A stretch of 64,000 bases of DNA from Papaver somniferum. Taxonomy: Eukaryota; Streptophyta; Magnoliopsida; Ranunculales; Papaveraceae. Shown piece after piece: positions 17,053 through 40,614 of this stretch. The position numbers and the translations under genes are program-made. Location of the stretch: positions 19,083,116-19,147,115 of the forward strand of contig NW_020621603.1 in the NCBI RefSeq assembly GCF_003573695.1, read 5' to 3'. A model generated the notes under the pieces. The model did no database searches, was not told the origin of the DNA, and saw only the letters and a program-made list of their open reading frames with translations. Each line of letters opens with the position of its first letter. Within the stretch, counting starts at the first letter, position 1.

Positions 17053-17060
17053 TATAAAAA
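17053..17060 (+). promoter_or_regulatory. B LTR TATA box
   Basis: TATAAAAA, kept in the 3' LTR at 40156-40163. It lies some 430 bp from the LTR end and would direct the sense transcript of B. Confidence 0.5.
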
Positions 17061-17510: not shown

Positions 17511-17547
17511 GTTTAATCTCTCGGCTGCAATCTCATAATTTCACAAT

Positions 17548-19434: not shown

Positions 19435-21410
19435 TGATGAGTGACAAATATTGTATAATTTTATCCCTTTTTGTTGGCATTTAACTCATCTTTTACGCAG
19501 TAATTCTGCATTTTATCCCATATTCTGTATTTTCATTGTTTTTCAAGAATAAATATTTTTCTTACTTAATTTTGCATTTTTAGGTAATAAATAAAGTTTG
19601 GATGAATTGCGGAGCGAAAAGAGAAGAAAAGTAGTGAAAAGCCGGGAGGAATTACACAAGGAAGCCGCGAAGAATGTCGTGCACAAGACCAAAAGGCTAG
19701 GAATGGGCTCAAGAAGGAAGAATTGTTCTTAAAGAAGATATGGGCTTGGCATACCCAAGGCCCAAAACCCTCACCCAAACCCATTTTCTATATCCAAGCC
19801 CGTCTCGGATTTCAGCCGTCAGATCGAAGCATTTCAGCATCCTACGGTCGCTCCTATGCCTGTGCATCAAATCCCGATGATTCCCCTAAACACTACAACA
19901 CCTAACCTAATCTCGCACCGTATACTTCGTTGTATTTTACATCCTACGGTCGCTACAAGCTGCTTCTTTCTTAGCCGTCCGATCCACCTACCATCTCCAT
20001 ATCCAGCGGCTTCAGCTCGTGGTACACACATCTTGATACACCCGCCTAACACACTAATACTCGAACCCTATGACCTAGCCAAACAGCTCCCTACCCTAAC
20101 CCATATCGACCTCCACCTTCTTCTTCCTCTCCCCCTCTCTGCAACAGAACCACCATACCCTGCCGTACCACCACCTATTCTACTTCCATCATCCATCGCT
20201 CCTGTCACCACCATTTCTACCACCAACTCCACCATCTCCATCATTACCCGACACGACCCATCCCCCTAATTCGAAGCGCTTTAACCTCTCTCACCAACTG
20301 ACCTAGGTGAGGGTTGATAAAACACCTCAAATTAGGGAGCAATTGTAGCGATTGGGAGCAGGAGAAGAACCGAGAGAGGCAGAGAAGACATGGGGCGACG
20401 CCAATTCAAAGTTTTGGTGAGTAAATTTCGGAAATTGAAAACCCTAATTTCAATTATAGAATTTCGGAAAAATTGGGTATTTGGTGATATAAATAGGGGG
20501 TGATGTAGAGGGGTAGAGGGGGATGATCTCTGGACTAGCCAGAAAAACATTTTGTTCTGTTTGTTTGCAATTTAAATTTCAGTTATTGCATGACAGTTGA
20601 TAGTGAATGTTATATGATGTTTTGATTTTTATCTTCAATGTTGAGAATGTTGTTTCAATTAGCATATGTGATGAATGTTGATGCTGTTAACATGTTTTTC
20701 ATGAGCTAAGTTACTGCAGCTAAGGCTCAGATGAAGCCTTAGTGCATTGTTGGATGATGAATTGCTAGGTTAGAGCCTTAATGCTTGTTTTTCTTGAGCA
20801 ATGGGAGTGATTAGTGCTCATCTGTGTGCTTGTGATTGATTGTACTGTCAAAAGACAGTCAATGCTAGGAGCACATTAGTTGAGCAAGCTGATTTTCTTT
20901 CCATTCCAATTGTATGCTTAGGGTATTAATTTCAACCTAGAACTACATTGTTTGGCTAGGACACCAAGGTGGATTCTAAGCCTTTAGCTTAGCCACAATT
21001 CCTTTCTTCAGTCACTTGCAATTCCAGCTCTGCTTTTATTCACTGCTCAGTTACTTTCCTTTACTGTTTTGCTTAGTTCTTGCATTTTGAAGCCTATTGT
21101 GCACTGAAGTCAGTGCACAAACTCACTCCTGCCCTTGGCTTACAGCCTTGGTTCCCTGCCATTGTTATTTTATATCATCTGCCATCTAATCCTTGCTGTG
21201 CTGCCATCTTGTGTTAACTGTTTTAGTTCTTTGTATCTGCCTTCATCCATCACTGCTCACTGCCATATTGTTTGCTTCCTTCATTGACAGCTTAGGTTAA
21301 ACTTTTAAGCACTCCTACTCCCTGTGGACTGATCCCTTTCTTATCCCTATATTATAAAACTTGACCTTGTATACTTGCAAGAGTTTTTGTGTGTTTTCCA
21401 TTCCACACCA
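19435..21410 (+). repeat. C 5' LTR
   Basis: A 1976-bp LTR beginning TGATGAGTGACAAATATTG and ending CCATTCCACACCA. It has a TATAAATAGGGGG box at 20488. It differs from the 3' LTR by scattered substitutions and small indels. Proline- and leucine-rich short frames in it are duplicated in the 3' LTR only because the LTRs are copies. Confidence 0.93.
20488..20495 (+). promoter_or_regulatory. C LTR TATA box
   Basis: TATAAATA followed by a G-run. In the 3' LTR a 2-bp deletion changes it to GATAAATAGGG (about 30221-30231). If this box is the promoter, the 5' LTR is the active version. Confidence 0.6.
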
Positions 21411-21416
21411 AGTTTT

Positions 21417-21434
21417 TGGCGCCGCTGCCGGGGA
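21417..21434 (+). other. Primer binding site of C, tRNA-Asp
   Basis: TGGCGCCGCTGCCGGGGA, six bases after the 5' LTR. It is complementary to the 3' end of plant tRNA-Asp apart from one C for T, the standard Athila primer. Confidence 0.88.
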
Positions 21435-21539
21435 GTGGTGCTGTGTGTTGAATTTCTTATCCTTGCTGTCTTTCATCTACCATTGCATCTCTGTCAAGAT
21501 CATTGCGGAGTTGTCTAAGTTGCTGCAGAGCTGTGTTGC

Positions 21540-21625
21540 TAGGCCACCTGAGCTGCTGCTGCTGCTGAAACCTGAGTTGCTGCTGCTGCTGCTGCTGTTG
21601 CTGCTGCCAAGCCAAAGCCTGCTGC
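21540..21625 (+). repeat. CTG-rich microsatellite in C leader
   Basis: Runs of CTG triplets broken by short interruptions, between the primer site and gag. It gives leucine runs on the plus strand and glutamine runs on the minus strand, neither likely to be a protein. A following stretch (21660-21870) repeats CTGGGCT words. Confidence 0.85.
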
Positions 21626-21699
21626 TGCCAAGCCAAAGCAACTGGGATGCTACCTGCTGCTGCTGGGCTCTGCCTTCTACTGGTGGGCTTGTACTTCTC

Positions 21700-22429
21700 T
21701 GAACTGGGCTTCACCAACTGAACTGGGCTCGCCAAGTGTTACTGGGCTCGTCCAACTGAGGTGGGCTTCGTTGATGTTGCTTCTGCCGGGCTGCTAAACC
21801 CAACTGCTGTTGCTGGGCTTGAGCGTGAGCTGCTTAGGACGATCCTAAAGCCCAACTGGGCTGTTCAACTAAAAAGGGGACTAAAAGCCTATTTTTGGGC
21901 TTCCCTCCAAAAACCAAGTAAGCCTAACCCATGAGTTAACCCACTTGGGCCTCATTTAAATTCAAATTCGGGCTTGTAATAATTAATTTAATTATTTTTT
22001 TGGGATTGTAATAATTTTTATTTATTTTCTTTTTTTTTTTTTTTTTTTTTTTTTGGGACTGTAATTATTTTTTTTTTTTAATTTTTCTTTTATTTTTCTT
22101 TTCTTTTATGGGCTTGTCTAATTATATTATTGTTTTTATTTTCTTTATGGGTTGTGCTAATTTATGCTAGGTTTAGTTCAAAAAATTTTTTCCAAAGCCC
22201 ACCTTTAACCAAAAAACAAAAATCCCTTATTAAAACCAAAACCAAATCTTCGTAACCCTTGTGGTCCAAAATTGTTTCGATTGCTCTGTCTGACCACATG
22301 TTAGTTGAGGTACCTACAAGGACATGATTGTGACCTAGAGACCAAACAAACAGACTTGTTAGAATTAATCAAGAAGAACCTATCGAAATTCTGAGTTCTG
22401 AGGTAGACAGCCCAGATCAATCCGAAACA
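21700..22429 (+). other. C untranslated leader with poly-T tract
   Basis: Non-coding leader of C. A T-rich tract at about 22015-22110 includes an uninterrupted run of more than 20 T. No gene or conserved RNA structure is recognised. Confidence 0.6.
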
Positions 22430-23861
22430 ATGGGCGAACCCGTACCCCAAGGATTATATGTACCCAACTAGAGCCCAGTCAACCTCTTGTATTGTGCTAC
22501 CCGAGCTAATGGCCATTTATGAGCTGAAATCAAGCCATACAGATGCTTCCTATTTTAGAGGTGTTGAGAATGAAAACCCGTACCACCACGTGAGAGAATT
22601 CGAGGAAATTTGTGGAACTCTGCGTTTCACTCAAATGTCCGACGAAACCCTAAAGTTAAGGCTTTTTCCTTCTCCCTGAAAGATAAGGCAAAGGCCTGGC
22701 TCTTGCTTTACAGCCTCAATCCATCATGACATGGGATGACCTCATAAAGGAGTTTTTCAAAAAGTTTTTCCCGAACCACAAGACTGCGACAATTCGTCAA
22801 AGTCTGAATAGCTTTGTGCAATTAGAAGGTGAGACCTTAGCTAGATACCTGGAGAGATTCAATGAATTATTGCTCCAATGTCCCCATCATGGTTTTGAAA
22901 AATGGAGACTTGTGCAAATTTTGTATGAAGGTCTAGATGTGTCCACCCGAACAACGGTTGAGTCGATGTGTAATGGTCTATTCGTAGACAAAACTGCTGA
23001 TGCGTCTTGGGACTTCTTGATTGAAGTAGCTGAAAAGACGCAACAGTGGGAATCCATCCGTGAACCAGAAAGACTACATCCGAAGCAAAGGCTTTTAGGA
23101 TTGAAGCGGATTTCGAGGGAAGAGCAAACATGGCATCAATAGTTAGGAGATTAGAAGAGTTAGAACTACATAAAAATTCAAAACCTTCCACCACTACTCT
23201 CCGAGAACATGTCGCTTCGTGTTGTGCCGCTTGTAACGATCCCAACCATCAATTCCAAAATTGTCCCGATTTGCTTGCAGTCCAGGAATCTAGGCTTGAA
23301 CAGGCACATGCCATGTTTCAAAAACCAGAGCATAACCCTTATTCACAGACCTACAATCCAGGATGGAGAAACCACCCTAACTTTTCATGGTCAAAAGGAC
23401 CCACTCAGGGAGGACCATCTCAACCCAATCAGAGCTATCAAAACAATCAGGGATATCAGAACAATCAAGGTTATCAACACCCGAGAAACCCTCAACAACA
23501 ATCAAACTCTCAACAACAATCATATCCTCAACACAATACCGACAAGAGATTATCCACCCTAGAGGAAATGTTCCAGAGTTTGATGCAAAGTCAGAAAAAT
23601 CTAGATCAAAAGATGGATCAAATGTGTGGAGAGAAAAGGGTAAACTTCCTAGCCAACCCCAACAAAATCCAAAGAGGATATTTCAAACAGGCACAACATC
23701 CTGCACTGAAACCTCACCCGATCAAGTCCATGCCATTACCACCCTCCGAAGTGGTAAAGTCATCGAGAACAACGTGGGCGAACCTAATGAATCTGATACA
23801 AATTCCACGCTGTCTCCACAACCCCAGAAAACCAAAGAATCTGAGCAAGTTGGAAAGCTGA
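22430..23861 (+). pseudogene. gag: Athila-type gag of element C
   Basis: Capsid polyprotein. The likely start is the ATG at 22430 (MGEPVPQGLY), with a TAG and a frameshift soon after. The frame from 22458 carries the Athila gag signature ENENPYHHVREFEEICGTLR. Two further frameshifts near 22670 and 22715 lead into TWDDLIKEFFKKFFPNHKTA and a long helical core to 23142. The last frame (23130-23861) has a perfect CCHC knuckle CAACNDPNHQFQNC near 23215, followed by a glutamine/asparagine-rich tail. The coding breaks make it non-functional, but they are few, as expected for a fairly recent copy. Confidence 0.85.
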
Positions 23862-24492
23862 CAATTCTACTGCTGTGAATGTCCCTTTGCCAACTCATTC
23901 TCCTGTTGCCCCATTTCCTCAAAGATTGATCTATCAACAGAAAAGTACCCATTACAATGAGATGTTAGATCTGTTCAAGAGAGTCAACATCAACATTCCT
24001 TTTCTTGAAGCAATCAAGCAAATCCCTGCTTATGCCAAATTCCTCAAAGACTTGTGTACTCAAAAGCGCAAGCTCAATGTGCACAAACGTGCTTTCTTAG
24101 CTGAGCAGGTGAGTTCCATCATTCTGAACAAAACTCCACCCAAGTTTAGGGATCCAGGATGTCCAACAATTTCTTGCACTATAGGAGAACACACGGTCAA
24201 TAAAGCGTTATTAGACCTAGGTGCAAGTGTTAACCTACTGCCATATTCTGTTTATGAGCAGTTAGGTCTTGGGGAGTTGAAACCAACATCTATCACTCTA
24301 CAACTGGCAGACCGATCTGTCAAGATTCCTCGTGGAGTGGTCGAAGACGTTTTGATCAAGGTTGACAAATTCTATTTTCCCGTAGACTTCATTGTCTTAG
24401 ACACTCAACCTGTACAAAACCCAGACTGTCACATTCCTGTCATCTTAGGACGTCCTTTCTTGGCTACGTCCAACGCGATCATTAATTCGTAA
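23690..24492 (+). pseudogene. Athila-type aspartic protease of C
   Basis: The gag-pol junction motif QVHAITTLRSGKVI occurs near 23720 in the frame ending 23878. The protease frame then runs 23875-24492. It has the catalytic region LLDLGASVNLLPYSVYEQLG and the downstream VILGRPFLATSNA motif. Athila proteases normally use DLGAS, so the active-site aspartate is present. The frame ends in a short deletion at about 24486-24492 that shifts it out of the following NGVLKLSFGNMTV-type segment. Confidence 0.85.
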
Positions 24493-24496
24493 TGGA

Positions 24497-26999
24497 GTGT
24501 TGAAACTGTCTTTTGGTAACATGACGGTAGAATTGAATGTGTTCGATATTAGTCAACAACCTGTGAATCTTGATGATGATGATGTGCATGAAGTTAATAT
24601 GATTGAAGGATTAATGCAAGATTCGTTGACTAACATTCTATCCGTCGACCCCTTTCAAGCATGTATGGAGAACTTTAACCAGATTCCTATGATGATGCAT
24701 ACTGTAGTGACGTCCTATCTCTGCTCGAATCTGTACCTCAAATGGACGTCACTGAAAGGAAATATGAAGTGGAACCACCCTTACTCTCTGATTCCAAGCT
24801 TTTCCATCCATTGTTGAGCCACCCAAGCTTGAATTGAAAACATTGCCTAGTACGTTGAAGTACGCATTCCTAGGTTCTTCTGATACTTTACCCGTCATTA
24901 TTTCATCATGTTTAGACACGGAACAGGAAAGTAAGCTTTTAGAAGTACTTAAGGAACACAAAGAGGCCTTAGGATGGACCATCTCAGATCTCAAAGGAAT
25001 TAGTCCCACCATTTGCATGCACCACATTAACCTTGAAGAGAATGCCAAACCATCGAGGGAAATGCAAAGGAGACTTAATCCTAACATGAGAGATGTAGTC
25101 AAAGGAGAGATCCTGAAACTACTTGATGCGGGTATCATATACCCAATTCCCGATAGCAAATGGGTTAGTCCCATTCAAGTTGTGCCTAAGAAGTCAGGCA
25201 TTACTGTAGTTCAGAACGACAAGAATGAATTAGTCCCTACTCGTACAACCACAGGATGGCGAGTATGCATCGACTACAGGAAGTTGAACACAGTAACAAG
25301 GAAGGATCACTTCCCGCTCCCTTTCATTGACCAAATGCTAGAACGTGTGTCTGGACACAGTCACTACTGTTTTCTAGATGGCTTTTCCGGTTATAACCAA
25401 ATTCACATTGCTCCAGATCAGGAAAAAACTACATTCACGTGTCCATTTGGGACGTTTGCTTATAGACGTATGCCCTTCGGGTTGTGTAATGCACCTGCTA
25501 CTTTTCAGCGTTGCATGATGAGCATTTTTTCTGACATGATAGATAGTTTTCTCGAGATCTTTATGGATGATTTCTCTGTTTTTGGTTCCTCGTTTGACGA
25601 ATGTTTGAAGCATCTTGCCCTCGTGATATCCAGATGTAAAGAAAAGAACCTTGTTCTAAATTGGGAAAAATGCCATTTTATGGTGAATTCAGGAATAGTT
25701 CTAGGACACATCATCTCAGAAAAAGGAATTGAAGTGGATAAAGCTAAAGTTGACCTCATTCAACATCTACCACAACCTTGCTCTGTGAAGGAGATCAGAT
25801 CATTTCTAGGTCATGCTGGTTTTTACCGGCGATTCATCAAAGATTTCAGCAAAATCTCCAGACCTCTGTGCAGTCTTCTCTCCAAAGATGTTGCCTTCAA
25901 TTTCGATGCTGCTTGTGTGAAGGCATGGGAGGAATTAAAAACCCTTCTCACCACCGCTCCTATAGTCCGACCACCCGATTGGAAGCTTCCGTTCGAACTT
26001 ATGTGTGATGCCTCTGATTATGCTGTTGGTGCTGTTTTAGGACAGCGAGTTGATAGACTACCATATGTGATATACTATGCTAGCAAAACCCTTAATGATG
26101 CCCAACTCAATTATTCAACTACCGAGAAGGAATTGCTTGCCGTCGTTTTCGCATTAGACAAGTTTAGATCTTATCTGATAGGGTCTAAGATCATCATATA
26201 CACAGACCATGCGGCTTTGAAGTATCTTCTTTCCAAGAAGGATGCTAAAGCTCGCCTTATTCGATGGATACTCTTATTACAGGAATTCGATCTCGAAATC
26301 CGTGATAAGAAAGGTTGTGAGAATGTGGTTGCTGATCATTTGTCTAGATTAACTTTAGAGTCTATTGATGAATTTGAGCTGATTAGAGAATCATTCCCAG
26401 ATGAACAGCTGATGTCTATCTCAGACCTTCCTTGGTTTGCTGATATTGTTAACTACCTCGCTACAGGTAGGATGCCCTCACGTTGGTCGAGACAAGACCG
26501 CTCTAAATTCCTGGCTGAAGTTAAACATTTCCTTTGGGATGACCCATATTTGTTTAAGTACTGCCCAGACCAAATCATTAGGAGATGTGTCCCCAACACT
26601 GAACAGAAAGATGTGATATCTTTCTGTCATGACCAAGCATGTGGAGGCCATTTCAGTGCCAAGAAAACCGCTGCAAAGATCTTGCAGTGTGGATTCTATT
26701 GGCCATCATTGTTCAAGGATTGCCATGATTATTGTGTTGCTTGTGAACGCTGTCAAAAGCTAGGAAGCATTTCGAGGAGAAACATGATGCCATTGAACCC
26801 CATTTTGATTGTGGAGATTTTTGATGTTTGGGGGATAGACTTCATGGGTCCATTTCCCATGTCTGACAGCAAGTTGTACATCCTAGTCGCAGTTGATTAC
26901 GTTTCTAAGTGGGTAGAAGCCATAGCAACCAGAACAAATGACCACAAGGTGGTACTTTCATTTCTAAAGGAAAATATTTGCACGTTTTGGTACCCCTAG
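24497..26999 (+). pseudogene. pol: Athila-type reverse transcriptase, RNase H and integrase N-terminus of C
   Basis: 24497-24817 is the linker after protease, then a frameshift into a 721-codon open frame (24834-26999). Reverse transcriptase spans about residues 80-260, with the substrate motif [12 protein letters not shown], the [11 protein letters not shown] block holding the first catalytic aspartate, and the active site EIFMDDFSV holding the other two. RNase H spans about 375-500 ([15 protein letters not shown], then [21 protein letters not shown] and [11 protein letters not shown]). The integrase zinc-binding part ([16 protein letters not shown] ... CVACERCQ) and the start of its core with the first aspartate (VWGIDFMG) follow. 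The frame breaks at 26990 just before the second catalytic aspartate. This is the only long intact pol frame in the window. Confidence 0.92.
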
Positions 27000-27700
27000 A
27001 GCTATCATCAGTGACGGCGGTTCACATTTTCGTAACAAGTACTTTGAGTCTTTAGTACGCAAGTATGGCATAACTCACAAGGTTGCTACTCCGTACCACC
27101 CTCAGACTAGTGGACAAGTGGAAGTTCTAATAGGGAAATTAAGCACATTCTAGAAGACGGTTAACCCGTCCAGGAAAGATTGGTCATTGAGATTGAATGA
27201 TGCTTTGTGGGCCTATAGAACAGCTTATAAGACACCAATTGGCATGTCCCCCTATCGTCTAGTGTATGGAAAGCCGTGCCATCTACCTGTGGAATTAGAA
27301 CATCGTGCCTACTGGGCAATCAAAGAGCTGAACTTTCTCTGGACGAAGCTGGAATTCAAAGGAAACTTCAACTCAACGAGTTGGAAGAATTGAGAAATGA
27401 GGCTTATGATAGTGCCAAGTTATAAGCAGAAGATGAAGATGTTTCATGACAAGCGTATTCTACGCAAATCCTTCACTCCTGGTCAGAAAGTCTTGCTGTA
27501 TGACTCCCGATTACATCTTTTTCCAGGAAAACTGCGTTCCAGATGGAAGGGTCCGTACCTAGTACGCACAGTTTTTCCTCATGGAGCTGTAGAGCTGGAG
27601 GATGTTCCAACAAGAACGTTTTCAAAGTCAACGGGCAGAGATTAAAGCCATTCCTTGAGCCATTTCCACCCGACATTGAAACAACCAACCTGGAGGACCC
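27000..27700 (+). pseudogene. Integrase core end and C-terminal domain of C
   Basis: The integrase continues after the frameshift at about 26990. ISDGGSHF (second catalytic aspartate) is near 27005, and the QTSGQVE motif with the catalytic glutamate is near 27105. A further break and a TAG follow near 27150. 27187-27393 reads [26 protein letters not shown], a typical core end, and 27397-27645 is the C-terminal DNA-binding part (PGQKVLLYDSRLHLFPGKLRSRW). At least three frame changes separate the pieces. Confidence 0.85.
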
Positions 27701-27720
27701 AGTCTATGTGGACTAAACTG

Positions 27721-29189
27721 GTCCACTCTTTCCCTAAATAACCAAAAAGTTTTCCAAATCTTTCCCTAAAAACCAAAATTTTCTTTTTCCCAACAAAACC
27801 AAATTTTTTCCAAAAAGTCCAATCCCATTAAAAACCAAATTTTCTTGTAGATAATGTGTTAGTTAAATTTCCTTTTGTATATATTTGTGCTCATCCATTG
27901 TGACTCCTAATATGATGGATTTTTGCCTTGAATAACGGAGTTTTAATCGAGCTTTCGCCGTACAATCGGGTATTCTCTCTCCTTTTACTCTACTCAGCAT
28001 GTTCCTCTTCATATATTGTTTTATAATTCTTTCCATATTTTGAAACATTGAGGACAATGTTTAGTTTAGGTTTGGGGGTATAGAGTAGATACCATATAAT
28101 GCTATAATTGAAAACGAACTCCTTCTTAAAAAATCGAAAAATTAAAAAAAAATTAAAAAAAAAAAAAACATAAAAATGGAGCTCATTTACCTTGAAATGT
28201 TGACTCTTGTGCAAATATGTAATTATTAGGAGTCTTAGTCTAGATATTTAGGCACCCTGATTCTAGCACAATTCACATAGTGATAAGAAATTTGCACGCG
28301 CACGATCTACCAATACATGTATGGCCTCGATCTTCAAGGTGTTTGATAGGAAGTTACGATTGCCAATCACTTTAGAATACTGAACGAAACTTGACTAGCT
28401 TGTTCTTTGGTTGGTTGGGATAGAAGGTGGAGGTTACATTAAGAAAGACAACCATCGAATTTAACTGGGTGCATCAAAAAGGGCTACCTCTTGCAAAGTG
28501 TCATGTAATTTTTGTTTCCTTTTGTATATGTATCAAAAGTGTTTCCTTTCAAAAAAAAAAAAAAAAAAAAAATCAAGTATTTTCAATTCCATCTCTCTTG
28601 TTCCAAAAATAAAAGAGTAGTCAATGTAAATAAGAGTCATGTAAATAGTCATTTTGTTGTTTCATTGTAATAAGCAAGGAGGGTGTATGCCATTGATGTA
28701 CAACGCGAGTAATTGTGAAATACCTCCAACTCATTCACAATTCTCGTAAAGTCCGGACAGCTAGCTAGATTTCGACCTTGGTTCTTAGCCTGAGAAACTA
28801 TCTCTTGGTGATTAGTAGTCATAACTTCAGATCTTTCTTTACACATGTGTAGATACACTTTACACTCTTATCACATGTCTTTTTTGTTATCAGTGCTAGG
28901 ATTGTGCCTTCGATAGCTAGATTGACATCTCCATTTTGCTGTGAGCTTAAACTGTTTTGCACATGTCACATTTGATGGAATCTGAGCTTATATTTTGACC
29001 TAGAACTTTGTAGGTACGTTCTAAGCAAACCTTCACGAGACTTCAACTCGTCCACTAGGGACACTTAGTGGTTTAAAAGGCTTAGTGCATACGCTAAATG
29101 CATTCGAGAGACCAGCGACAGTGGTATAGTTAGGATTTCCTTAGTTTTGTTTTACTTGAGGACAAGTAAAATTCAGGTTTGGGGGTATT
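27721..29189 (+). other. C 3' non-coding region with two polypurine-tract-like motifs
   Basis: No envelope-like frame is seen between pol and the 3' LTR. AGGTTTGGGGGTAT occurs twice: at about 28067-28080, preceded by GAGGACAATG, and at about 29175-29188 directly before the 3' LTR, preceded by GAGGACAAG. The second is the functional PPT by position. Two A-rich runs lie near 28140-28170 and 28550-28573. Short frames here are not credible. Confidence 0.75.
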
Positions 29190-31143
29190 TGATGAGTGCC
29201 AAATATGTATAATTTATCCCTTTTTGTTGGCATTTAACTCATCTTTTGCGCATAATTCTACATTTTATCCCATATTCTGTATTTTCATTGTTTTCAAGAA
29301 TAAATATTTTTCTTACTTAATTTTGCATTTTTAGGTAATAAATAAAGTTTGGATGAATTGCGGAGCGAAAAGAGAAAAAATAGTGAAAAGCCGGGAGGAA
29401 TTACACAAGAAGCCGCGAAGAATTCGTGCACAATACCAAAAGGCTAGGAATGGGCTTGAAGGACGAATTGTTCTTAAGAAGATATGGTTGGCATACCCAA
29501 GGCCCACAACCTCACCCAAACCCATTTTCTATATCCAGCCCGTTCTCTCGGATTTCGCCGTCAGATCGAAGCATTTCAGCATCCTACGGTCGCTCCTATG
29601 CCTGTGCATCAAATCCCGATGATTCCGCTAAACACTACAACACCTAACCTAATCTCGCACCGTAGACTTCGTTGTATTTTACATCCTACGGTCGCTACAA
29701 GCTGCTTCTTTCTTAGCCGTCCGATCCACCTACCATCTCCATATCCAGCGGCTTCAGCTCGTGGTACACACATCTTGATACACCCGCCTAACACACTAAT
29801 ACTCGAACCCTATGACCTAGCCAAACAGCTCCCTACCCTAACCCATATCGACCTCCACCTTCTTCTTCCTCTCCCCCTCTCTGCAACAGAACCACCATAC
29901 CCTGCCGTACCACCACCTATTCCACTTCCACAACCACCTACCTACACCAACTACCACCAACTCCACCATCTCCATCATTACCCGACACGACCCATCCCCC
30001 TAATTCGAAGCGCTTTAACCTCTCTCACCAACTGACCTAGGTGAGGGTTGATAAAACACCTCAAATTAGGGAGCAATTGTAGCGATTGGGAGCAGGAGAA
30101 GAACCGAGAGAGGCAGAGAAGACATGGGGCGACGTCAATTCAAAGTTTTGGTGAGTAAATTTCGGAGATTGAAAACCCTAATTTCAATTCTAGGGTTTCG
30201 GAAAAATTGGGTATTTGGTGATAAATAGGGGGTGATGTAGGGGGTAGAGGGGGATGATCTCTGGACTAGCCAGAAAAACATTTTGTTCTGTTTTATTTCA
30301 CAATTTCAATTTCAGTTATTGCATGACAGTTGATAGTGAATGTTATATGATGTTTTGATTTTTATCTTCAATGTTGAGAATGTTGTTTCAATTAGCATAT
30401 GTGATGAATGTTGATGCTGTTAACATGTTTTTCATGAACTAAGTTACTGCAGCTAAGGCTCAGATGAAGCCTTAGTGCATTGTTGGATGATGAATTGCTA
30501 GGTTAGAGCCTTAATGCTTGTTTTTCTTGAGCAATGGGAGTGATTAGTGCTCATCTGTGTGCTTGTGATTGATTGTACTGTCAAAAGACAGTCAATGCTA
30601 GGAGCACATTAGTTGAGCAAGCTGATTTTCTTTCCATTCCAATTGTATGCTTAGGGTCTTAATTTCAACCTAGAACTACATTGTTTGGCTAGGACACCAA
30701 GGTGGATTCTAAGCCTTTAGCTTAGCCACAATTCCTTTCTTCAGTCACTTGCAATTCCAGCTCTGCTTTTATTCACTGCTCAGTTACTTTCCTTTACTGT
30801 TTTGCTTAGTTCTTGAATTTTGAAGCCTATTGTGCACTGAAGTCAGTGCACAAACTCACTCCTGCCCTTGGCTTACAGCCTTGGTTCCCTGCCATTGTTA
30901 TTTTATATCATCTGCCATCTAATCCTTGTTGTGCTGCCATCTTGTGTTAACTGTTTTAGTTCTTTGTATCTGCCTTCATCCATCACTGCTCACTGCCATA
31001 TTGTTTGCTTCCTTCATTGACAGCTTAGGTTAAACTTTTAAGCACTCCTACTCCCTGTGGACTGATCCCTTTCTTATCCCTATATTATAAAACTTGCCCT
31101 TGTATACTTGCAAGAGTTTTTGTGTGTTTTCCATTCCACACCA
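29190..31143 (+). repeat. C 3' LTR
   Basis: 1954 bp, colinear with 19435-21410. It ends CCATTCCACACCA and is followed at once by the TATAT duplication and the resumed protease gene of B. Confidence 0.93.
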
Positions 31144-31148
31144 TATAT

Positions 31149-31480
31149 CATCCTCAAAGTCAAAGAAAATTTGGCCTACACTGAGACCAAGTTTTACATA
31201 ATCCGAGAAGACCCAGGATATGACATGATCCTTGGACGAGCTTGGATTCACGCTGGAAAGAGGGATCCAATGCCTTCAATACGTCCTGCTGTTGAAGCGG
31301 GATCTGACTTAGAAAAAATGGAGGATACTTCCCCGTTCGAGCATCTGGAGGAAGTTAAAGCCTTGACAGAACTCACACATAAACCTGGAGAGAGTGCCTA
31401 TTCTTTTGTCAAGAGGTTCCGTACTCAGGAAAGTCTTATTCCTCTTCATGCGGCAATAATACCAATGTTGTAATATACTA
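31149..31480 (+). pseudogene. Protease of element B, C-terminal half, and downstream stretch
   Basis: The protease reading resumes after C: ETKFYIIREDPGYDMILGRAWIH holds the ILGR flap-side motif typical of retroviral aspartic proteases. It continues with an acidic EKMEDTSPFEHLEEVKAL and then KRFRTQESLIPLHAA before a stop near 31472. D keeps the same FIKRFRTQESLIP word at 49320. In an autonomous Tat element reverse transcriptase would follow; here it is absent. Confidence 0.7.
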
Positions 31481-31594
31481 CTCTGGTACGGGGACTTCTC
31501 CCTACTAACAACTTAGCGATTACCAAAAGCTACGAATGGATAGTCTCACCTCAGCAATATTACACCAAATGGTTACGCTCAGAGCCTCTCCATA

Positions 31595-31929
31595 TTGATC
31601 ATTCTATCAAGAGGTTTATTGTTGAAGATATGGATAAGCATGACCGACAGTATGCCGAATACTCCCCTTTGCGTGAGTGTCCATATGTACCACATCCATG
31701 GAATCAGCAGAAAATATTCAAGGCGCGAACTACTAAACCGAACAAATTCGAGGAAGGAGATTTGGTTCTCAAGGCGACTAAACATGATCTCTATTCTGCA
31801 AGGAGATCCAATTGGGAAGGACCATTTATGGTTGCTAAATCCGTAACCGGAGGATACTACAAATTGATCAACACAAATGGCAGAACCCTGCCAGTAATTC
31901 ATGAGAATTGGCTTAAGGTATTTGGCTGA
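31595..31929 (+). pseudogene. Integrase C-terminal end of element B
   Basis: The frame 31630-31929 contains FEEGDLVLKATKHDL, then SNWEGPFMVAKSVTGGYYKL and LPVIHENWLKVF, the SH3-like C-terminal domain of Ty3/gypsy integrases. The catalytic core and all of reverse transcriptase/RNase H are missing upstream. The joint, from a protease-proximal stretch to an integrase tail, is also found in D near 49400-49750. Confidence 0.75.
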
Positions 31930-32315
31930 AATCATTGGGCATTCGAGGTACTGGATGTTTGAGCATTCATGAGGTCCGGATTTGGCATTTAGGATTTTCT
32001 TTTATTGTATTTCAATTCCTCCAAAACTGCTTTTATCGACAACAACAACTAAAGGTTCCAGCGACGAAAAAAAGGGGAATCAAAGAGGGAGGCTGATTGA
32101 GGTTCCCATCAAAGCAGGCGAGCGAGGTTGCAATACTTGCAATCAGTATTTGAATTCAGAAATTTATTAAAATTCAGTTCATATTTCTTAAAAGAAAATC
32201 TCTATCAAATCCAAAAGAAAATCCTCAATCATCTACCAATCCAAAACCAGCTAATACCAAAACCCAAATAAAAACCTCAAATCTCTCAGAAATTCAAGAG
32301 ATTATGAAAAGGAAA
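31930..32315. other. Spacer between B pol remnant and antisense gene
   Basis: Non-coding, A-rich towards 32315. It would contain the 3' end of the antisense PMD transcript. No clear poly(A) signal can be chosen with confidence. Confidence 0.4.
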
Positions 32316-33062
32316 TCAAAGAAAATCAGCAAAAAAGGATTTTTTCTCCTCTGCATCCTTCAAGACCTGCAAAGCCGCCATCTCCTTGTACAACTCTTCA
32401 GTCAGCCTGGCAATCTTGTCTTCTTTCTCTATCACAGCATCATTGGGAAAGGGTATGTTGTTCTCACATGAGTCCTTGATAGCGTTCATTTGCTTACGAA
32501 GCCACTTTACATTGAAGCCAAGTCTTTCTGAATTCTCCAAGTTAAACTCCCAATCAAAGAGTACATCTGGAGTCATAGTATTTCTGGCTCTAGTGCATAT
32601 ATCACTTACAACACGTAAGATAACACTTACTTGCATTTTTAAAGCATAAGCACGTCCAGGATTCCTGTCAACAATTATGTGGCTAAATTTCTTCCATATT
32701 TTCTCATACAAGCCTGCATATCCAATGGGAACGCTGAACCCACCAACTAGTTCATGATACGGGAGTGATGCATCAAATGGAGGATCAAAAGCAACTCCTG
32801 CACTTGGATATTCATGCACCACTATACGGTTCTCAGTTACTGGGGAAGCTTCTATAATCAGGACAACAGTTTCTTCAGTATTCTCTACTGGTAACTCAGT
32901 TTCTTCTATCACTAAACCAGCAACAATCGGGGTTTCCATAACTTCAGTGACAACCTTCTTATGGCCTTGAAGTGCAGGGATGGTTGTCTCTTCATCAATA
33001 ACTCCAGGGCAGTTCGAGTTATCCTTATTGGTTTCAGTATCCTCAACTTCGGTATTTGAGAC
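32316..33062 (-). pseudogene. PMD gene exon 5 (C-terminal region)
   Basis: Opens after a TATTAG acceptor at 33063-33064 and runs to a stop at 32316-32318, 248 codons. It has an acidic stretch (VEDTETNKDNSN, IEETELPVENTEETV), then a globular-looking part (PPFDASLPYHELVGGFSVPIG, WKKFSHIIVDRNPGRAYALK), and a terminal helix with heptad character (EKEDKIARLTEELYKEM). A degraded copy of this exon occurs in D near 49750-49830. The fold is not recognised. Confidence 0.65.
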
Positions 33063-33714
33063 CTAATACGAAGATTACATGAGGTTAGAGCAATCTAAAC
33101 ATGAAACGAAATGAGATCATAATATACAATATACATGCAGTATAACATCATCAATGTTCATCATTATACGCTCAAGGAACGAGCAAATATCATGAAAGTC
33201 ATGAAAATACGTTTTGCGGCAAGCTCGTCTGAAGAGACTGTACTCATCCCTGTACTATATGAAGAACTGGGAGAAATCTAAAACTAATTTGAGGATGGGT
33301 TATATACAAATCTCTTCATATGGATGTCCCCTACCACATATAAAAATTTCATGACAATCCGATGAACGAGCAAGGAGATGTAGTCAAAACATTGAGCAAC
33401 ATACCGTCTGAAAAAGTTCTGAAAGTCTCCTGGAAGTTTACTATTTCGCCTTTTCAGGCCCTGAACGTGCTCAAAACTTAAAAAGCTTCTTTGTTAAATC
33501 TTTTAAATTTTCCGGGCTTAAAGATTCATCTGCAGATCATGAAAATCCGACTCCAGATGAAGGTTTTACGGTGTTTTTGCTAAAAACTGGGTTCTGAATT
33601 TTCTGACGACGAATTTTGACATAGTTTTTCGTATATGCACATGGATTCTCATTCATTCATTCACAAATAAACAATTTCATACTTCTATGAAGAGTTTACA
33701 ATATATGTGCTTAC

Positions 33715-34249
33715 TTGGGTAGTCTCCGAAGTGTTCAAAGAGTTGGGGTTGTCCGTGTCAACATCAAGAGGCTCATTGCTTTCATTCGGTTCCAAGCCTT
33801 TGGAACTTCCTCCATCTCTATTCTCAGAGGATGACCGATTATCATCACTCTCCACCTCCATGGAGACATCCTCCTGGACACATTCTCAAACAATTAGCAT
33901 TTTACATATGAAGCATTATATTTGGCTACGAGGAAGAGTACTCGCAACATTTTCTTCTTCAATGCTTGAATCAGAAATTGTATGCCCAGCTGTAGAGAAT
34001 TGAAGGCCATAAATACTAGACGGAGCAAAATTCTGTAACCAAATAACAAATACTGGTTTTACGATCCTATTAATACGGATAGAAGAAGTCACGGCGGAAA
34101 AGGTGCCAACAACTCACCAAAGAAACAACCGGGGACTTTATGGTGTTAGGCAGCAGCTTACAATTCTTGTTCCTACCTTCTCCACCATGAATGACTGTTT
34201 CAGCTTCTGAGAAATTCACTTCAAGACGAGGTCTCACAGCACGACCGTC
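33715..34249 (-). pseudogene. PMD gene exons 2-4
   Basis: Exon 2 (34249-34118, 44 codons) reads DGRAVRPRLEVNFSEAE and on. Exon 3 (34032-33949, 28 codons) reads NFAPSSIYGLQFSTAG and on. Exon 4 (33873-33715, 53 codons) is rich in Glu, Asp, Ser and Asn (EDVSMEVESDDNRSSSEN). Each has AG before and GT after and a length divisible by three. The donor after exon 3 is the weakest call. Such a low-complexity acidic linker after a PMD has no assigned role. Confidence 0.6.
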
Positions 34250-34322
34250 CTGCAAAAGAAATTGAGGTGATAATCAAAGGCAATTATTTCAATTATACGA
34301 AGAATATGCAAAAGATACATAC

Positions 34323-36005
34323 TGGTGAACATCCTGGAGATGTCTTTCGCTTATCGCCGCCGGAGATGTGTTTCAATCTGGGTCGAGAAGCAATCATATC
34401 AGCGGAAGGAGGCTCTTTCACCAGAGGTTGACTAACCCTTACGAAATCATGTAAGCATTCAAATTGCTGGTTCCAGAAATCCATATAACCTGGAGTTACA
34501 TACGTAACTCGGTCAGCACAAGGGAACCAATAAGAGCTTCCTTCGACATGTGTACGGTCTAAACAAGTCTTAATCTGTTTTACCGACGGTTTTCTCCTCC
34601 GAAAAGTTGGAACACACTGATCCATACCTATCTGACGGGATGCTATGTCAATGTTGTATTCCTCCACCGAAAAGTCTCCATATGTTGCTGCTATTAAATA
34701 ACCTGGAGTGCAACTCAACATGAAGGATCTTTCACCATTGCTCAAGTGAGCACCAGATTTCAAAGCCATGCTTTCTCCAGCATTGAAAGTTGTCAATTGG
34801 GAAACATACGGAGGAATCAACACCCAGGGACGGAAGTTAAACTCAGACTCATCGTCTACAATATCAATGAAACGCGTCTTGGATTGAGGTTGTTTTGTTG
34901 ACCAGCGCATAATCCTAGCGTTATCCTTCTCGGGGAAAATACGTCGAGAATTAGCAGCATTCAACCCTTGCAAAATATTACGGGGAATAGGTGCATACTT
35001 CGCAAAGCGTTCCCATATCAAGGCCTGGAGAAACATCGTATTGGCGTAGCATTCAATCTTCATAAAGCCGTTCGAAACACTGGAGTCTATAACCAAGGAG
35101 TCCATGTTAGAGTACAAAGAACCCAAGAATAAGATACCTATGGGAAGTTGTTCACCTTGAGCCATCTTAATGGAAAAAGGGATTACAAATGACTTTAGCG
35201 AAGTTCCGGCGTCTTCGAACACGTCCCTAGACAGCCATAAACACAAGAAAGCAGCAATAGACAACATACCGTCAGGTTCGTCGAGAGGGACATCTCGTGG
35301 CCACCAATGCGTTAACCAGTGAGCATAACAGCCTTTGCCAGCAGCCTTGTTAATTCTCTCCATCTCAACTGTTAAGGTGTTAGAAATTTCTTTCTCCTCC
35401 GTCGAAAGCTCTTCAGGAAAGTTACCTGTGATTGGAAGATGCAATAAAGCAACTACATCTTCCAAGGTAATAGTAAACTCTCCCCAGCTTCATATAAAGG
35501 TATGAGTTGGAATGCACCAGCGAGCTAGAAGGGCCACAATACCTCGTGCATCATGCAAAATATACAAATCTCCGGATGATTGAATAGCTCTGGTAACCTG
35601 TGCTCTATCCAGCATAACTCTAACATGAGGAAAACCCAGCATGTGTCTTGCCCATACAGAAAATTTCTCTAAAGGTCGTCGAGAGAGTTTGAATTCTATA
35701 ATTGAGGCAAGGAAAAGTCCTCGTTCAAGGAAAAACTGAATAGCTTCTCGAGGAGTCACCAAATTTTTTTGAATAACCGTTCTGGGATTTATCAAAAGGC
35801 GGAATGCTGGAGTTCTGAGACGTCTTTCAGTGTCTTGCTGAACCGCGAAAAATGCACCATCTATATTGGGAACATTTTTGATTCCAGGTGCTTCTTCTTC
35901 TTCATCACCAATAATAGAAGTCTCGTCCATATACGTATCACTGGAAGTGTCATTTTCCTGAGAATCGGACATCCTTGCGAAGTAGCTGTAATGTGCACAA
36001 AGCAT
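34323..36005 (-). pseudogene. PMD gene exon 1 (plant mobile domain core)
   Basis: Two open stretches, 36005-35493 and 35489-34323, are in the same frame, separated only by TGA at 35490-35492. The first Met could be at 36005 or 35972; the second begins an acidic N-terminus (MSDSQENDTSSDTYMDE) and is preferred. Family-typical words lie on both sides of the TGA, THTF before and WGEFTITLEDV after, so the stop replaced a sense codon rather than ending one gene. Readthrough, an undetected splice or a sequencing error are alternatives. The exon ends CCA with a GTATGT donor. Confidence 0.75.
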
Positions 36006-37305
36006 TCTACTTCAGTATATCGTCATACCAGGTGCAAACTTCGATAATATGATGGGGTCATATAATCTGACAACGGGATACTTATGGAGACATCTACAAA
36101 AATGGTAATTCTTAACTTTTACCTCTTTACAATTCCACTAACAAATAGTGATTGTGCCGCAAGGGTTAACACTCCAAAATTAGTTCGCTTCTTGAAACCT
36201 ACAATAACGGTCGAAGCTTTATTAATTTTTGAAACCGATTTTTCATAAAATCATAAGCACAATTTTCATAGTATAAACATCCATAACTGAACTATGAAAT
36301 TTACACCAAGACAATATTTCATCATAAATAAGTTGTCTAATTTCGAGGGTTACTCAAAACCCACGTTTTGATTTTGCAAAGCAATAATTAATGAGAATTA
36401 CTCACGTAAATTTTCAAAAAAAAATTTTAATGAGAACAAACTCATGTGAATAAAATATGTCATCATATTTTGCATAATATGTCACGGTTACATATGAAAA
36501 AAATCTATTTTCCTTCGTACGAGTGTTTTTCTTTAAAACGAAGGTTTATTTTGGTTTTGTGAAAGCTCACATCTTTTAGGATAAAGTTTTGGTTTCCATG
36601 AAAGCTCGTAAACAAAATTTTATCACTGGATACAGGTCTATTTCAAAATAAAAATCTCTCTCAAGTTAGGGAGTATTGCTAGTTTCTTGAACTAATGATC
36701 GAACGAACATACGTTTAAATAAAATCAGGGTTTTTCAACAAAACTCACACTCATATATACACATGTATAAAATTTTATGATGAACAACTCATGAAAAAAC
36801 AACAAAAGAAAAAAAAATTGACGTACCTGGTCGGCGCCGAAGTTGGCCGAAATTCGGCAGGCGATGGGCAATGACGGTTGGCTCCGACGAAATTTTTTTT
36901 TCTTCTCCTACTGAGACGTGAGGGAGATGGTGAATTGATGAAGATGGTGGTCGGACAAGGTGAGAGGAAATAAAAAAAAGAGAGGATTAATTCCCTTTTA
37001 TATCAAATTTCATTTCCAAAACCTAATTTCATAAGGATTTCCTCGTCGGGCCCGGCCCGTGAATCCTAAAACGACCAAAGACCCGTCATCAAATCAGCGG
37101 TTCTACACAAATTTGTGCTCACCGAATGACGCTTTATTATGCCACTGGGGTTTTCGCTCAAACCATGGTTTGCTCATTCGGTCAAAATCCGGTAACATCT
37201 TATCTTATGACTAAGTTCAATTACTTATTTTTGTATGTACCTGGAAAATCACCGTTCAATGCTGACTGAGGAACATGACTGTTCCTCACGAAGCAGGGGA
37301 CTTAA
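36006..37305 (-). promoter_or_regulatory. Upstream region of the antisense PMD gene, with TATA box and leader exon
   Basis: On the minus strand a TATAAAAGG box lies at 36993-37003. About 30-170 bp downstream is a GC-richer leader (about 36965 to 36836) that ends in a GTACGT splice donor near 36830-36835. The rest down to 36006 is AT-rich and looks like a 5' UTR intron; its acceptor is not fixed. D keeps the matching AT-rich region at about 54415-55550. The promoter role is inferred from position and motif. The plus-strand PPT of B lies at the right end. Confidence 0.5.
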
Positions 37306-40300
37306 TATAGATGGTGGATTTTAGACAAGGGCAAAATCATAAAACCATAATTATGCATACTCCGGATCAGGCAATTGGATGAGTATTGAGACTCATGCCT
37401 CTCAACAAAGCGTGAAAGCTCATGCCATAAAATCTCAGACTGAGAAGGCTGTCCCTCAGAGTATCTATAAATGTGTAGTCTCCCAGCTGAGGCCACGGCA
37501 CATCTCATGAATACTGAGCAATTTCAGTAATTATTTTTATATAGAATCGAAAGAGTGGACGGATCCTAGACAGCATGCCTGCTAGTATAGAGCGACAACG
37601 TCTTCAGGATACAACCAGGTTTTCCCTGACTATATAGGAGAAATATGATACTCCAGCAAGTTCATATTGCTCAACTCTCAGATAATTAATGCTCCTAGAT
37701 AGGAAGCCCTGCTAGTATAGAGCCATCAGTTAATTATCTCTAATCGCTTGAATATCCAGCAATATTCTACGATTCTTCGTTATATTTCGTCATTTCAATT
37801 CGTGGTTCTTCCCAGCAGAATTCCACGGGTTAGTGATAAATATTCAACGAAATAGGCATCTGAGCATCGAATAAGCCCTGACTAAAATGGTGCAAGTGTA
37901 CTTAGCAATAATGCACAGAACAACATTTGAATGCGCAAACGAGCATTTCAAAAATACGAATGAATGATGAACCTATGCAAAATAGGAAGGAAAAATAATA
38001 ATAATAAAATATTAGCAAAGGCGCCAGGAACTGGGCTCACCAGCCGTCCGGTCATGTCGTGACCAGTCCCACGCCCAATTTTATATTTTATCATATTTTA
38101 TTATTTTTCCCTGATCTCATGAAAATTCTCTCGTTCGAGCAAATCTCCTTCGATTCAAGGAAATTCTTTAATCTCATGATATTTCTTTATGTCAAGAAAA
38201 TAATAAAATTAGGGAAAAGTGTCACGGGACCGAGCACCAGCCGGCCAACCATGCCCTAGCCGTGGCCGGTCCCACACCTCATGTCCCCATTATTTTATTA
38301 TTTCTCTCAATCCATGAAAATTTCCTGATTTCATGAATTTTCCCTAAAACCATGAAAATTCCCTGATTTCATGAATTTTCCCTAAACCCATGAAAAATAT
38401 TATAAAATTAAGAAAACTCGTGGGACCGGGCCCTAGCCGGCCGGTCATGCCCTAACCGATCCCACACGCCTCTTAGTCTGTTATTGTTATTTGTTTTGTT
38501 TTCCTCATTCCATGAAAACTCCCTGATTTCAACAAAATACCTTGGTTTCAACAAATCTATCTGATTTTATGAAAATTCTCTAAAATCATGAAAATTACAT
38601 AAAATTAGGAAGAGTGCCCTGGGACCGTGCCCGTTGACCGGCCGGCCATGCCTTGGCCATTGCCGGTCCCACACTCCATCATTCCCTATTTTATTATTAT
38701 TTTATTTCTCCCATATCATGGAAGTTCCATAATTTTATAAAACTCTCCAGTTTCATGGAATTTCCCTCAATTCAGAGTACATAAAATTACATAAAACTGG
38801 GACAGTGCTTGTCATCCGGCCGGCCATGCCCTAGCTGTGGCCGGTCCCGCACCTTGCAATTCCCTATTTTATTTATTATTTTTCATCATCTCATGTATTT
38901 TTCCTAGTTTCAGCAAAACCCTGGATTCTTCATATTTTCTCAAAATGATGCTCAAACGCACACCAGAAAATATCGAAACCCTCAGGACTAAGACATGAAC
39001 ATCATGGTGACACGGGCACAACCCCTTGACCGACCAAGGGTGACCCTAAGGCTTGCAAATGTCCGGTCCCACGTATTTTAGTTATTTTAACCTAATTTGC
39101 TCAATTGCTCGTATTAGGTTCAAACTCTTTTCAAACAATCAGGGGTTCTCTCAAACGACCATCAATTGGTCCCATGACCACCAAGTGCCGGTCTCATGAT
39201 CTCTTGGTCGGTCCCTCATCTTTTCATGGCTAGGTTTTGTTATCTTCCGCTCACACGAGCATTATTTTAATAAATGATTAAACCAGCATTTAATCATTCT
39301 TTCACCAACTGGTCCTCAAGAGACTTTGGTATTTTGCTCATTCGAGCATCTGTGCGTTACATGGTGGACTCATCATCCCATGTGGCCGGTTCTTGCTTCA
39401 CTCTGCAGTTGATTTTCAATAAATCATCAATTCATTAAAATTAGGATTTTGAATCCAAAACTCTGCAAAAAACATGATTCTGAGTAGATTCGAATACTGA
39501 TAATTTTATGTTGATTCCATGATCAACACTTTTATTTATTATGCTCGACCCAGTAGTCAGTATCATAAATTAAATTTTATTTGGTCCTTCTACCAACAAT
39601 TCATCAAAGGAGCAATATTTGCTCAAACCGGCAATATTTGATCAAACTAGCAATATTCGCTCAGACTAGCAATATTTTCTCAAACCAGCAATATTTGCTC
39701 AGATTAAAGAATATTGGTTCAACTATCAATATTCAACAATTCAGCAATACAGTTTGATCGCCTTAGGTTATCAACATGATAATACCTCGTCTCAGCAGAC
39801 ATATTTAACTCATGAATTTCAGAACATTTGCAAATCATGTTCAACTCAGCAATACATGGACTCATCATCCCATAAAGTCAAAAAATGACTCCACAATCAC
39901 GAGCCATCAATCGTGTCACATGGGGGGATATTAACTAGGGTTTTGGTATGGCGGTCTACGACACGTGTGTTCACCCACGACGAGAATGTGAGTAAGTCGT
40001 GCAATCAATTGGAAGAGTCAGCAAAGTAGTGGGTGTAAAATTAACCAAGTCTCTGCACGATGAGAAACTGGTTTTAACACGATTTCCCACTTCCCTACTC
40101 TCTGATTCCAGCAAGTGTCACACTTCATGGGATCATGGTGTTTTTAATTTAGTAATATAAAAAGACCTTTGGATCATGATTGAAAGGACAAGATTCGAAC
40201 ACTCGAACATTCGTCTAAACAAGCAATTTCTCGGCAAGTTCATACAGGCAATCCTTCGTCTACACGAACTCATCGTTTGAGCAATCACTCTCAATTGAGT

Positions 40301-40614
40301 AAAATTCAATCATTCAGAGCGTTCTTACGCTGAAATCACAGTAGACCTACAATCTCAGATCACCATTGATCCCACACATTTCTCAGCTTCCCTCCTACAA
40401 ATCAACCTATCCTCTCTTGTGACCGAATTGACTCTGGAATGACCATTGTTCTTGGTTTAGGCCGGAGTCCTACAGATTGATCTCTTGAACTTAAAGCACT
40501 CCCTTCTTGCAGTGCATCTGTGTGAGGTTCAACATTTCGCTCAGTTCAAGGAGTCTCCACACGGACGTCTCCTCAATTCCGTAAAAACCAGCAAATCGTT
40601 TTTCCCCATCTACA
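37306..40614 (+). repeat. B 3' LTR
   Basis: 3309 bp, colinear with 14192-17489. It starts TATAGATGG where the 5' LTR has TGTAGATGG, so the terminal TG is mutated to TA at its internal edge. Five GC-rich dyad modules (38028-38855), GCAATATTTGCTC repeats (39610-39725) and TATAAAAA (40156-40163) are kept. It is followed by CCAGC at 40615-40619. Confidence 0.9.

Follow-up and report, generated by a model that had tools for sequence, protein, structure and literature searches.

The window analysed here is the whole 64,000-nucleotide stretch of opium poppy DNA (Papaver somniferum, contig NW_020621603.1, positions 19,083,116 to 19,147,115). It contains an LTR retrotransposon, called B in this study, with a gene for a plant mobile domain (PMD) protein on the opposite strand. 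The features of B, in window positions, are as follows.

14192..17490, plus strand: 5' LTR, found by self-comparison and TSD search, with the TSD CCAGC in front
17494..17510, plus strand: primer-binding-site-like stretch TGGCGACCGCAGTGGGG, after the 5' LTR
17539..19100, plus strand: gag-like stretch, with open pieces at 17539-17919 and 18402-19097
19435..31143, plus strand: younger gypsy element nested in B, with its own LTRs and the TSD TATAT
31144..32027, plus strand: protease-like and integrase-end-like remnant, colinear in scored copies
33062-32316, minus strand: PMD gene exon 5, 248 codons and stop; relatives P0015-P0019
33873-33715, minus strand: PMD gene exon 4, 53 codons
34032-33946, minus strand: PMD gene exon 3, 29 codons, donor unusual in the B copy
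34249-34118, minus strand: PMD gene exon 2, 44 codons
35985-34323, minus strand: PMD gene exon 1, 550 codons, ATG at 35972, carrying the PMD domain
35986..36826, minus strand: leader intron, 841 bases, GTACGT donor at 36826-36821
36827..36970, minus strand: leader exon, approximate start set from the TATA box; CAG at its 3' end (36827), then GTACGT
37002-36993, minus strand: TATA box of the PMD gene, TATAAAAGGG, read in the sequence
37290..37300, plus strand: PPT-like purine-rich stretch, not clean, before the 3' LTR
37306..40614, plus strand: 3' LTR, with the TSD CCAGC behind

B is identified as an LTR retrotransposon by its two LTRs and the TSD CCAGC; the K2P distance between the LTRs is 0.0535. 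A Pfam search gave no match for the stretch at 17539..19100, which we take to be gag from its motifs, or for the remnant at 31144..32027, presumably protease-like and integrase-end-like on the same kind of grounds. RVT_1, RNase H, and integrase domains were found within 24792-26999, inside the nested gypsy element, and the reverse transcriptase (RT) there does not belong to B.

The antisense gene occupies the minus strand in the interval from the pol remnant to the 3' LTR and has five coding exons. An earlier note, made from the letters of this DNA, had proposed such a gene, and its PMD nature is confirmed by a PF10536 profile match at 34293-35489(-) (94.9 bits, E 7.1e-27; curated cut-off 34.9 bits). 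Upstream of a stop, a piece in the same frame (35490-36011(-)) gave a sub-threshold 13.7 bits at the adjoining PF10536 profile positions 10-35. A search of solved structures returned 0 matches. The proposed phase-0 joints hold throughout, the coding total being 550+44+29+53+248 = 924 codons; among the exon ends, the exon-3 donor of B at 33945 departs from the usual form. A candidate exon-3 end near 33921 was dropped because other copies and the protein P0018 put the donor at 33945. In poppy protein models produced by others, the joint of exons 1 and 2 is present in P0002, P0006, and P0018, and all four joints are present in P0018. The gene's own TATA box and a leader ending before GTACGT, both claimed previously, were also found. 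As a correction to that note, exon 1 has an in-frame TGA at 35492-35490, and this copy of the gene is therefore dead.

B belongs to a high-copy family in the opium poppy genome, with 4,368 exon-1 candidates. As the earlier note expected, the frame recurs in other copies: in the 40 candidates that were scored, the 39 other than B match nearly the whole exon-1 query at 93-96%. A TATA-like box (one mismatch allowed) was found in 27 of 30 compared copies, and a GTRAG donor at the exon-3 end (33945 in B) in 26 of 30. All introns of the gene, including the leader intron, are kept in 30/30 copies, which fits copying via sense RNA, as had been argued. At the intron ends, GT and AG survive in 23-28 of the 30 copies, just slightly more than the intron background of 83%. 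The majority of B copies are broken. In three of 44 copies, the examined part of exon 1 has neither a stop nor a frame-shifting gap (this set unites 30 copies picked by exon-1 similarity and 14 of the 23 picked by leader-intron similarity, with duplicates removed).

The pol remnant, noticed earlier in this one copy, is present, and all copies measured share this condition. It is colinear in 40/40 scored copies at 92% or more, and the gag-like stretch was likewise found in 40 scored copies. In the 16 copies where both were listed, the gap from gag to the remnant is 394-438 bases (16/16), leaving no room for an RT. A second family has a gap of 2,794-2,862 bases in 16 of 18 copies, likewise too small for an RT. 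Thus, key pol domains are absent from the measured copies of both families, which are non-autonomous. The two families have a common layout, and their LTRs, gag regions (70-72% DNA identity), and PMD genes have all diverged, with a PMD dS of about 1.7-1.9 from B to the second family. No polymerase-bearing PMD element was found beside the one further PMD copy examined. The genome's best PF10536 matches, L001-L008, were rejected as relatives of B: none was found by the PMD piece of B (tblastn, 1e-3), and the 5 kb beside L001 are without an open frame of 100 codons. In a literature search that covered few subscription journals, no report of polymerase-less families carrying PMD and nothing joining PMD with Papaver was found, and a review was the single match for PMD, non-autonomous, and retrotransposon together.

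To gauge selection on the PMD gene, divergence was compared in 23 copies, obtained from 30 picked by leader-intron similarity after omission of five with another gene and of L046 and L056 (partial alignment). A verdict from 30 copies picked by exon-1 similarity was dropped in favor of these, since picking by exon 1 itself lowers exon-1 divergence. Across the 23 copies, divergence is 0.059 in exon 1 versus 0.085 in the intron and 0.081 in the LTR, with separate bootstrap intervals; divergence from promoter to leader is high and was left uninterpreted because this stretch aligns badly. The ratio of amino-acid to silent variants in the PMD exon is 3.02 for singletons and 1.47 for shared variants (p 3e-5), versus 3.20 and 2.75 in the intron control (p 0.39). 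In exons 3 and 4, as in the opening 80 codons of exon 5, no selection signal was found (p 0.40), and stops showed no significant depletion in the shared class of variants (p 0.30). The 21 pairs compared within B have a dN/dS of 0.40-1.25. Between the families, dN/dS is 0.13-0.21 in 28/28 pairs, from four copies picked as stop-free and with dS above 1, i.e., near saturation. The between-family dN/dS agrees with purifying selection, and the comparison of copies shows that the PMD part is under such selection both within the B family and between families. Gag is constrained too (pN 0.19, pS 0.79 over 137 codons), as is the protease-like stretch (dN/dS 0.30 over 117 codons), which suggests that the element keeps a particle. 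A PMD gene preserved by selection while the elements multiply probably does something for them.

A sub-family with the same LTR type as B encodes a different, acidic protein in place of PMD. The promoter, leader, and leader intron of its gene are common with the PMD gene, and this other gene is the one carried by the five omitted copies of the 30 picked by leader-intron similarity. In the poppy gene set, relatives of both antisense proteins are entered either as ordinary genes or under a wrong name. No report of a sub-family with an acidic protein behind the promoter, leader, and intron of a PMD gene was found in the literature. It is possible, though on balance doubtful, that the promoter, leader, and leader intron form a modular antisense unit for expression in poppy LTR elements, one that takes different effectors, PMD or, with the same LTR, the conserved acidic protein. 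The PMD unit would then have outlived polymerase loss, and the elements would live as parasites without a polymerase, their lasting investment being gag and a host-directed effector maintained by purifying selection.

Neither the occurrence of PMD genes in Tat/Ogre elements nor the notion that they oppose silencing is new. PMD genes were reported in 57% of Ogre elements (Neumann 2019, PMC6317226), and in these elements, as in the PMD-A clades (Ikeda 2017, PMC5418596), PMD adds a gene to a Gypsy element, as in B. These surveys start from polymerase domains or annotated Gypsy elements, whereas the poppy families are without RT and show introns, a promoter, and selection in many copies. The Tat clade (Ogre or Retand) is defined by an additional RNase H domain and RT phylogeny (PMC6317226). 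The antisense genes of Grande and Retand (PMC7264820, PMC11963269) have the position and orientation seen in B, and that of Grande also has its own promoter; however, they encode another domain than PMD, and for Retand this is TRP28 in 97% of the clusters. PMC11963269 makes no mention of introns, nor does PMC7264820 under that word. Non-autonomous Papaver Retand Group I, with GAG and PROT only (PMC12582370), occurs in the same species group as B and misses the same domains; B may be one of its sublineages. Neither PMD nor antisense genes come up in the main text of that paper. The earlier label of Ogre, a group marked by a tRNA-Arg primer-binding site, is not supported: B has neither RT nor RNase H by which to classify it, and it could equally well belong to a non-autonomous family of the Retand type. 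MAIN and MAIL1, which silence transposons, and their partners are host proteins that have the PMD domain in common with the B protein (PMC7156037, PMC5418596). That a transposon-borne PMD may counter silencing has been proposed in print (PMC8616336). VANC21 of VANDAL21, named in the same paper, is a model of an element protein opposing silencing of its own family; unlike B, VANDAL21 is a DNA transposon with an unrelated protein.

We tentatively favor the explanation that B, itself dead, comes from a high-copy, non-autonomous Tat-type poppy family with a selected, self-promoted antisense PMD gene, the protein of which would most likely counter silencing. The family would have lost RT, RNase H, and the integrase core and kept gag, the protease-like stretch, and the PMD gene. 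The gene's own promoter would drive its transcription, followed by splicing, and the unspliced sense RNA would be copied by polymerase from other elements. The PMD protein may act in the nucleus on the chromatin or transcripts of its own family, and the likeliest way would be to disturb or redirect silencing of the MAIN/MAIL1-PP7L type; silencing as the target is inferred by analogy. Elements with a working PMD gene would thereby leave more copies. Lasting selection in an element that borrows its polymerase would require the benefit to fall mainly on the producing copy or family, as with VANC21 on VANDAL21. Against this explanation are the missing selection signal in exons 3 and 4 and the start of exon 5, the lack of a significant shortage of stops among shared variants, the many broken B copies, the sub-family of the same LTR type that manages without PMD, and the help that a trans-acting PMD protein would also give to non-carriers.

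The constraint on gag and the protease-like stretch, with the particle it suggests, would also suit a PMD protein that is a replication accessory, exporting unspliced RNA, bringing DNA into the nucleus, or attracting a partner polymerase, with silencing not its target. In Grande, the antisense protein localizes to the nucleus, and a role of this kind has been put forward in a review (PMC7264820). This reading is rather unlikely, as PMD proteins studied so far work in silencing and gene control, and the acidic sub-family has no PMD. Less probable still is that PMD is a passenger, selected in polymerase-bearing relatives from which polymerase-less families arose repeatedly. Autonomous Retand families exist in poppy (PMC12582370) and the within-B dN/dS range is compatible with this, but shared variants inside B are constrained, and the two families keep the same layout while LTR, gag region, and PMD have all diverged. 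An RNA role, by double-stranded RNA or interference with sense RNA, has been proposed for antisense genes of plant LTR elements (PMC7264820); the reading frame would then be a relic, which the coding-type constraint in exon 1 and the low between-family dN/dS make very improbable. Finally, although the PMD domain also occurs in host genes (PMC5418596), recent capture of a host gene, or chance insertion in one copy, is hardly credible and already contradicted, since every one of the 40 scored copies carries PMD, as do diverged element families.

PMD proteins of Arabidopsis silence transposons, yet throughout the flowering plants Gypsy elements themselves bear PMD genes. Polymerase-less families with a selected PMD gene and thousands of candidate copies in one genome offer a clear-cut setting for studying how the element profits. 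RT-based surveys would miss such families. The same poppy families also allow the question of direction to be asked: from element to host silencing protein, or from host to element.

The LTR retrotransposon B, probably of Tat type, carries an antisense gene for a plant mobile domain (PMD) protein. The elements and gene parts concerned are as follows (window coordinates).

7951 to 44023: older LTR pair enclosing B; TSD GTAAC; K2P 0.0676
14192-40614: element B; LTRs 14192-17490 and 37306-40614; CCAGC on both flanks
19435-31143: younger gypsy element nested in B; TSD TATAT; K2P 0.0256
31144-32027: remnant of B, protease-like and integrase-end-like
37002-36993, minus strand: TATA box TATAAAAGGG, between B's pol remnant and 3' LTR
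36827, minus strand: CAG end of the leader of the antisense gene
Minus strand: leader intron of the antisense gene, 841 bases
35985-34323, 34249-34118, 34032-33946, 33873-33715, and 33062-32316, minus strand: PMD exons E1-E5

The antisense gene has five coding exons with a total of 924 codons, and all joints are in phase 0, in agreement with the gene of about 920 residues proposed in the earlier note; the assignment to PMD is borne out by a PF10536 match at 94.9 bits. A pyrimidine-rich stretch lies between the TATA box and the leader. In the window copy, E1 is interrupted by a single in-frame stop at 35492-35490, and exon 3 has a donor of unusual form; thus, this copy of the gene is dead. The five introns are present in all 30 genomic copies, the window counted among them, the result to be expected when copies are made from the sense RNA instead of the antisense mRNA. 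The earlier description of GT-AG introns needs correcting at the exon-3 donor, which deviates in the window copy. GTRAG was found at the exon-3 donor in 26 of the 30 copies, while the codon before it varies; the remaining splice dinucleotides are kept in 23-28 copies, only a slight excess over the 83% intron background. A TATA-like box, with one mismatch allowed, was found in 27 of 30 copies; pooling both copy sets, in which some copies occur twice, gives 54 of 60 loci. Among independent poppy protein models, with joints read by eye, the E1|E2 joint occurs in P0002, P0006, and P0018, and P0018 reproduces all four exon joints; exon 3 is shortened in P0002, and in P0005 the splice into exon 2 starts from a more upstream site in E1.

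A genome search with the E1 probe gave 4,368 first-look candidates; among the best 40, which were scored, the 39 outside the window match at 93-96%. Further probes gave similar numbers (4,362, 4,733, and 4,252) of candidates unconfirmed as copies. A search for PMD relatives with the protein model P0003 gave 14,656 candidates, and 30 of the 95 scored were stop-free inside the match. As to the unbroken PMD copies that the earlier note had advised looking for, most B copies are broken: over the 493 E1 codons covered, 7 of 44 are stop-free and 3 of 44 also lack frame-shifting gaps. A large PMD group in G000 has matches split in two (about profile positions 13-183 and 179-347), the pieces being separated by at least a few hundred bases, unlike B; it looks as if the domain were interrupted by an intron.

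Copies chosen by E1 show low E1 divergence, but this value is biased by that very choice; divergence was therefore measured in 23 copies picked by leader-intron similarity. In these, E1 divergence is 0.059, versus 0.085 for the leader intron, 0.081 for an LTR part, and 0.086 for the pre-LTR stretch, with separate bootstrap intervals for E1 and the non-coding parts. Codon position 3 of E1 (0.073) is more divergent than positions 1 and 2 (0.050 and 0.054). In 44 copies (30 picked by exon 1 and 14 non-duplicates of the 23), the ratio of amino-acid to silent variants in E1 is 3.02 (480/159) for singletons, 2.57 (131/51) for variants in two copies, and 1.47 (119/81) for those in three or more (shared versus singleton, p 3e-5). 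The control, the leader intron cut into codons, gave 3.20, 2.94, and 2.75 across the same classes (p 0.39). The E1 end and exon 2 agree (shared 7/11 versus singletons 116/39, p 0.004). Exons 3 and 4, together with the initial 80 codons of exon 5, gave no selection signal (95/25 versus 347/115, p 0.40), and shared variants had no significant shortage of stops (p 0.30).

The proposed dN/dS comparison pointed the same way between families. The window and six B copies, set against L071-L074 (PMD relatives outside the B family, selected for their lack of stops), gave dN/dS of 0.13-0.21 in all 28 pairs, with dS of 1.1-2.1, values above 1 being near saturation. Among L071-L074, dN/dS is 0.15-0.30 (6 pairs), and within B 0.40-1.25 (21 pairs), in line with decay once the copies have inserted.

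All 40 scored copies align colinearly with the remnant (31144-32027) at no less than 92%. Gag and remnant were paired from 35 gag matches (40 minus self and four partial) and 39 remnant matches. The gap between them is 394-438 bases in 16 of 16 same-copy pairs, and about 390 in the window with the nested element, which holds its own reverse transcriptase, RNase H, and integrase, discounted. From remnant to E1, the gap is 2,133-2,208 in 11 of 12 pairs, 10,351 in one, and 2,295 in the window. About 100 bases of the window (32028-32127) between remnant and PMD gene are absent or unmatched in the other scored copies. There is no space for reverse transcriptase, RNase H, and the integrase core in the measured B copies. 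The gag, protease, and integrase-end labels are putative, assigned by motif; a Pfam search of B gave no gag, protease, or integrase-end match.

A second family, at locus L070, has an LTR end, gag, and protease-like stretch ordered as in B, with DNA identities to B of 72.5% for the LTR and 70.2% for the LTR-plus-gag stretch. In 18 co-listed copies, the gap from protease-like stretch to PMD measures 2,794-2,862 (16 copies), 2,347 (one), and 7,039 (one); judged by its length, the usual gap would about accommodate the rest of the PMD gene. PMD of this family (L071) compared with that of B gives dS 1.7-1.9 and dN/dS 0.13-0.15. Its gag is constrained (pN 0.19, pS 0.79 over 137 codons), and its protease stretch has dN/dS 0.30 over 117 codons, some poorly aligned.

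At the rate given in PMC12582370, 8.1e-9 per site and year, the K2P distance of 0.0535 between the two LTRs of B corresponds to an age of about 3.3 million years. Directly upstream of B (13057-14106), a 75-76 base unit is repeated in tandem, with long plus-strand open frames. Three to four tandem 76-base units occur within an LTR of an outer element (57949-58252), and B's LTRs have a single weak copy of this unit. The outer element is related to B, its LTR matching B's at 71-74% and that of L070 at 82%. At 52700-56600, only stretches of leader and intron 4, without a PMD exon, are left in it, and its ancestor may have carried a different type of payload.

Five of 30 leader-intron loci (L052, L053, L058, L064, and L068) track B to about 36091 (36159 in L068) and then switch to a common tail, 94-95% to that of L068. 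B's LTR (90-95%) and a TATA box are present in four of them; L053 matches only from 36979 on. In all five, a CAG acceptor precedes an ATG, and PMD is replaced by an acidic frame of about 167 codons; this frame is open along its whole length in L064 and L068, disrupted in L052, and shortened in L053. The tail gave 1,936 genome candidates, of which 40 were scored at 85% or more. All 59 relatives of the acidic protein bear the species name Papaver somniferum, with a wide range of unconnected annotations such as nucleolin-like, glutamic acid-rich protein-like, and starmaker-like. The protein model P0019 fuses the PMD C-terminal part to the acidic protein.

PMD has been reported in 57% of Ogre elements (PMC6317226) and as the commonest extra domain of Gypsy elements in a reverse-transcriptase-based survey of 121 genomes (PMC9289625); PMD-A clades are described as carried by Gypsy elements only (PMC5418596). 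Retand elements are reported to carry, as a rule, an antisense gene ahead of the 3' LTR, mostly TRP28 (PMC11963269), and Grande's antisense gene to have its own promoter (PMC7264820). Non-autonomous Papaver Retand groups with GAG and PROT only have already been described in PMC12582370, in whose main text the words PMD and antisense do not occur.

The target of selection is most likely the PMD protein, not the RNA. Because a polymerase-less element gains little from a protein aiding all elements alike, the protein would be expected to act family-specifically, on the element's own family, for which VANC21 acting on VANDAL21 is a model. A possible use of PMD by elements against silencing has already been proposed (PMC8616336). 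A role as replication accessory is our second choice. Since the PMD proteins that have been studied function in silencing and gene control, we prefer the reading that the PMD protein would interfere with a MAIN/MAIL1-PP7L-like pathway at the element's own LTRs.
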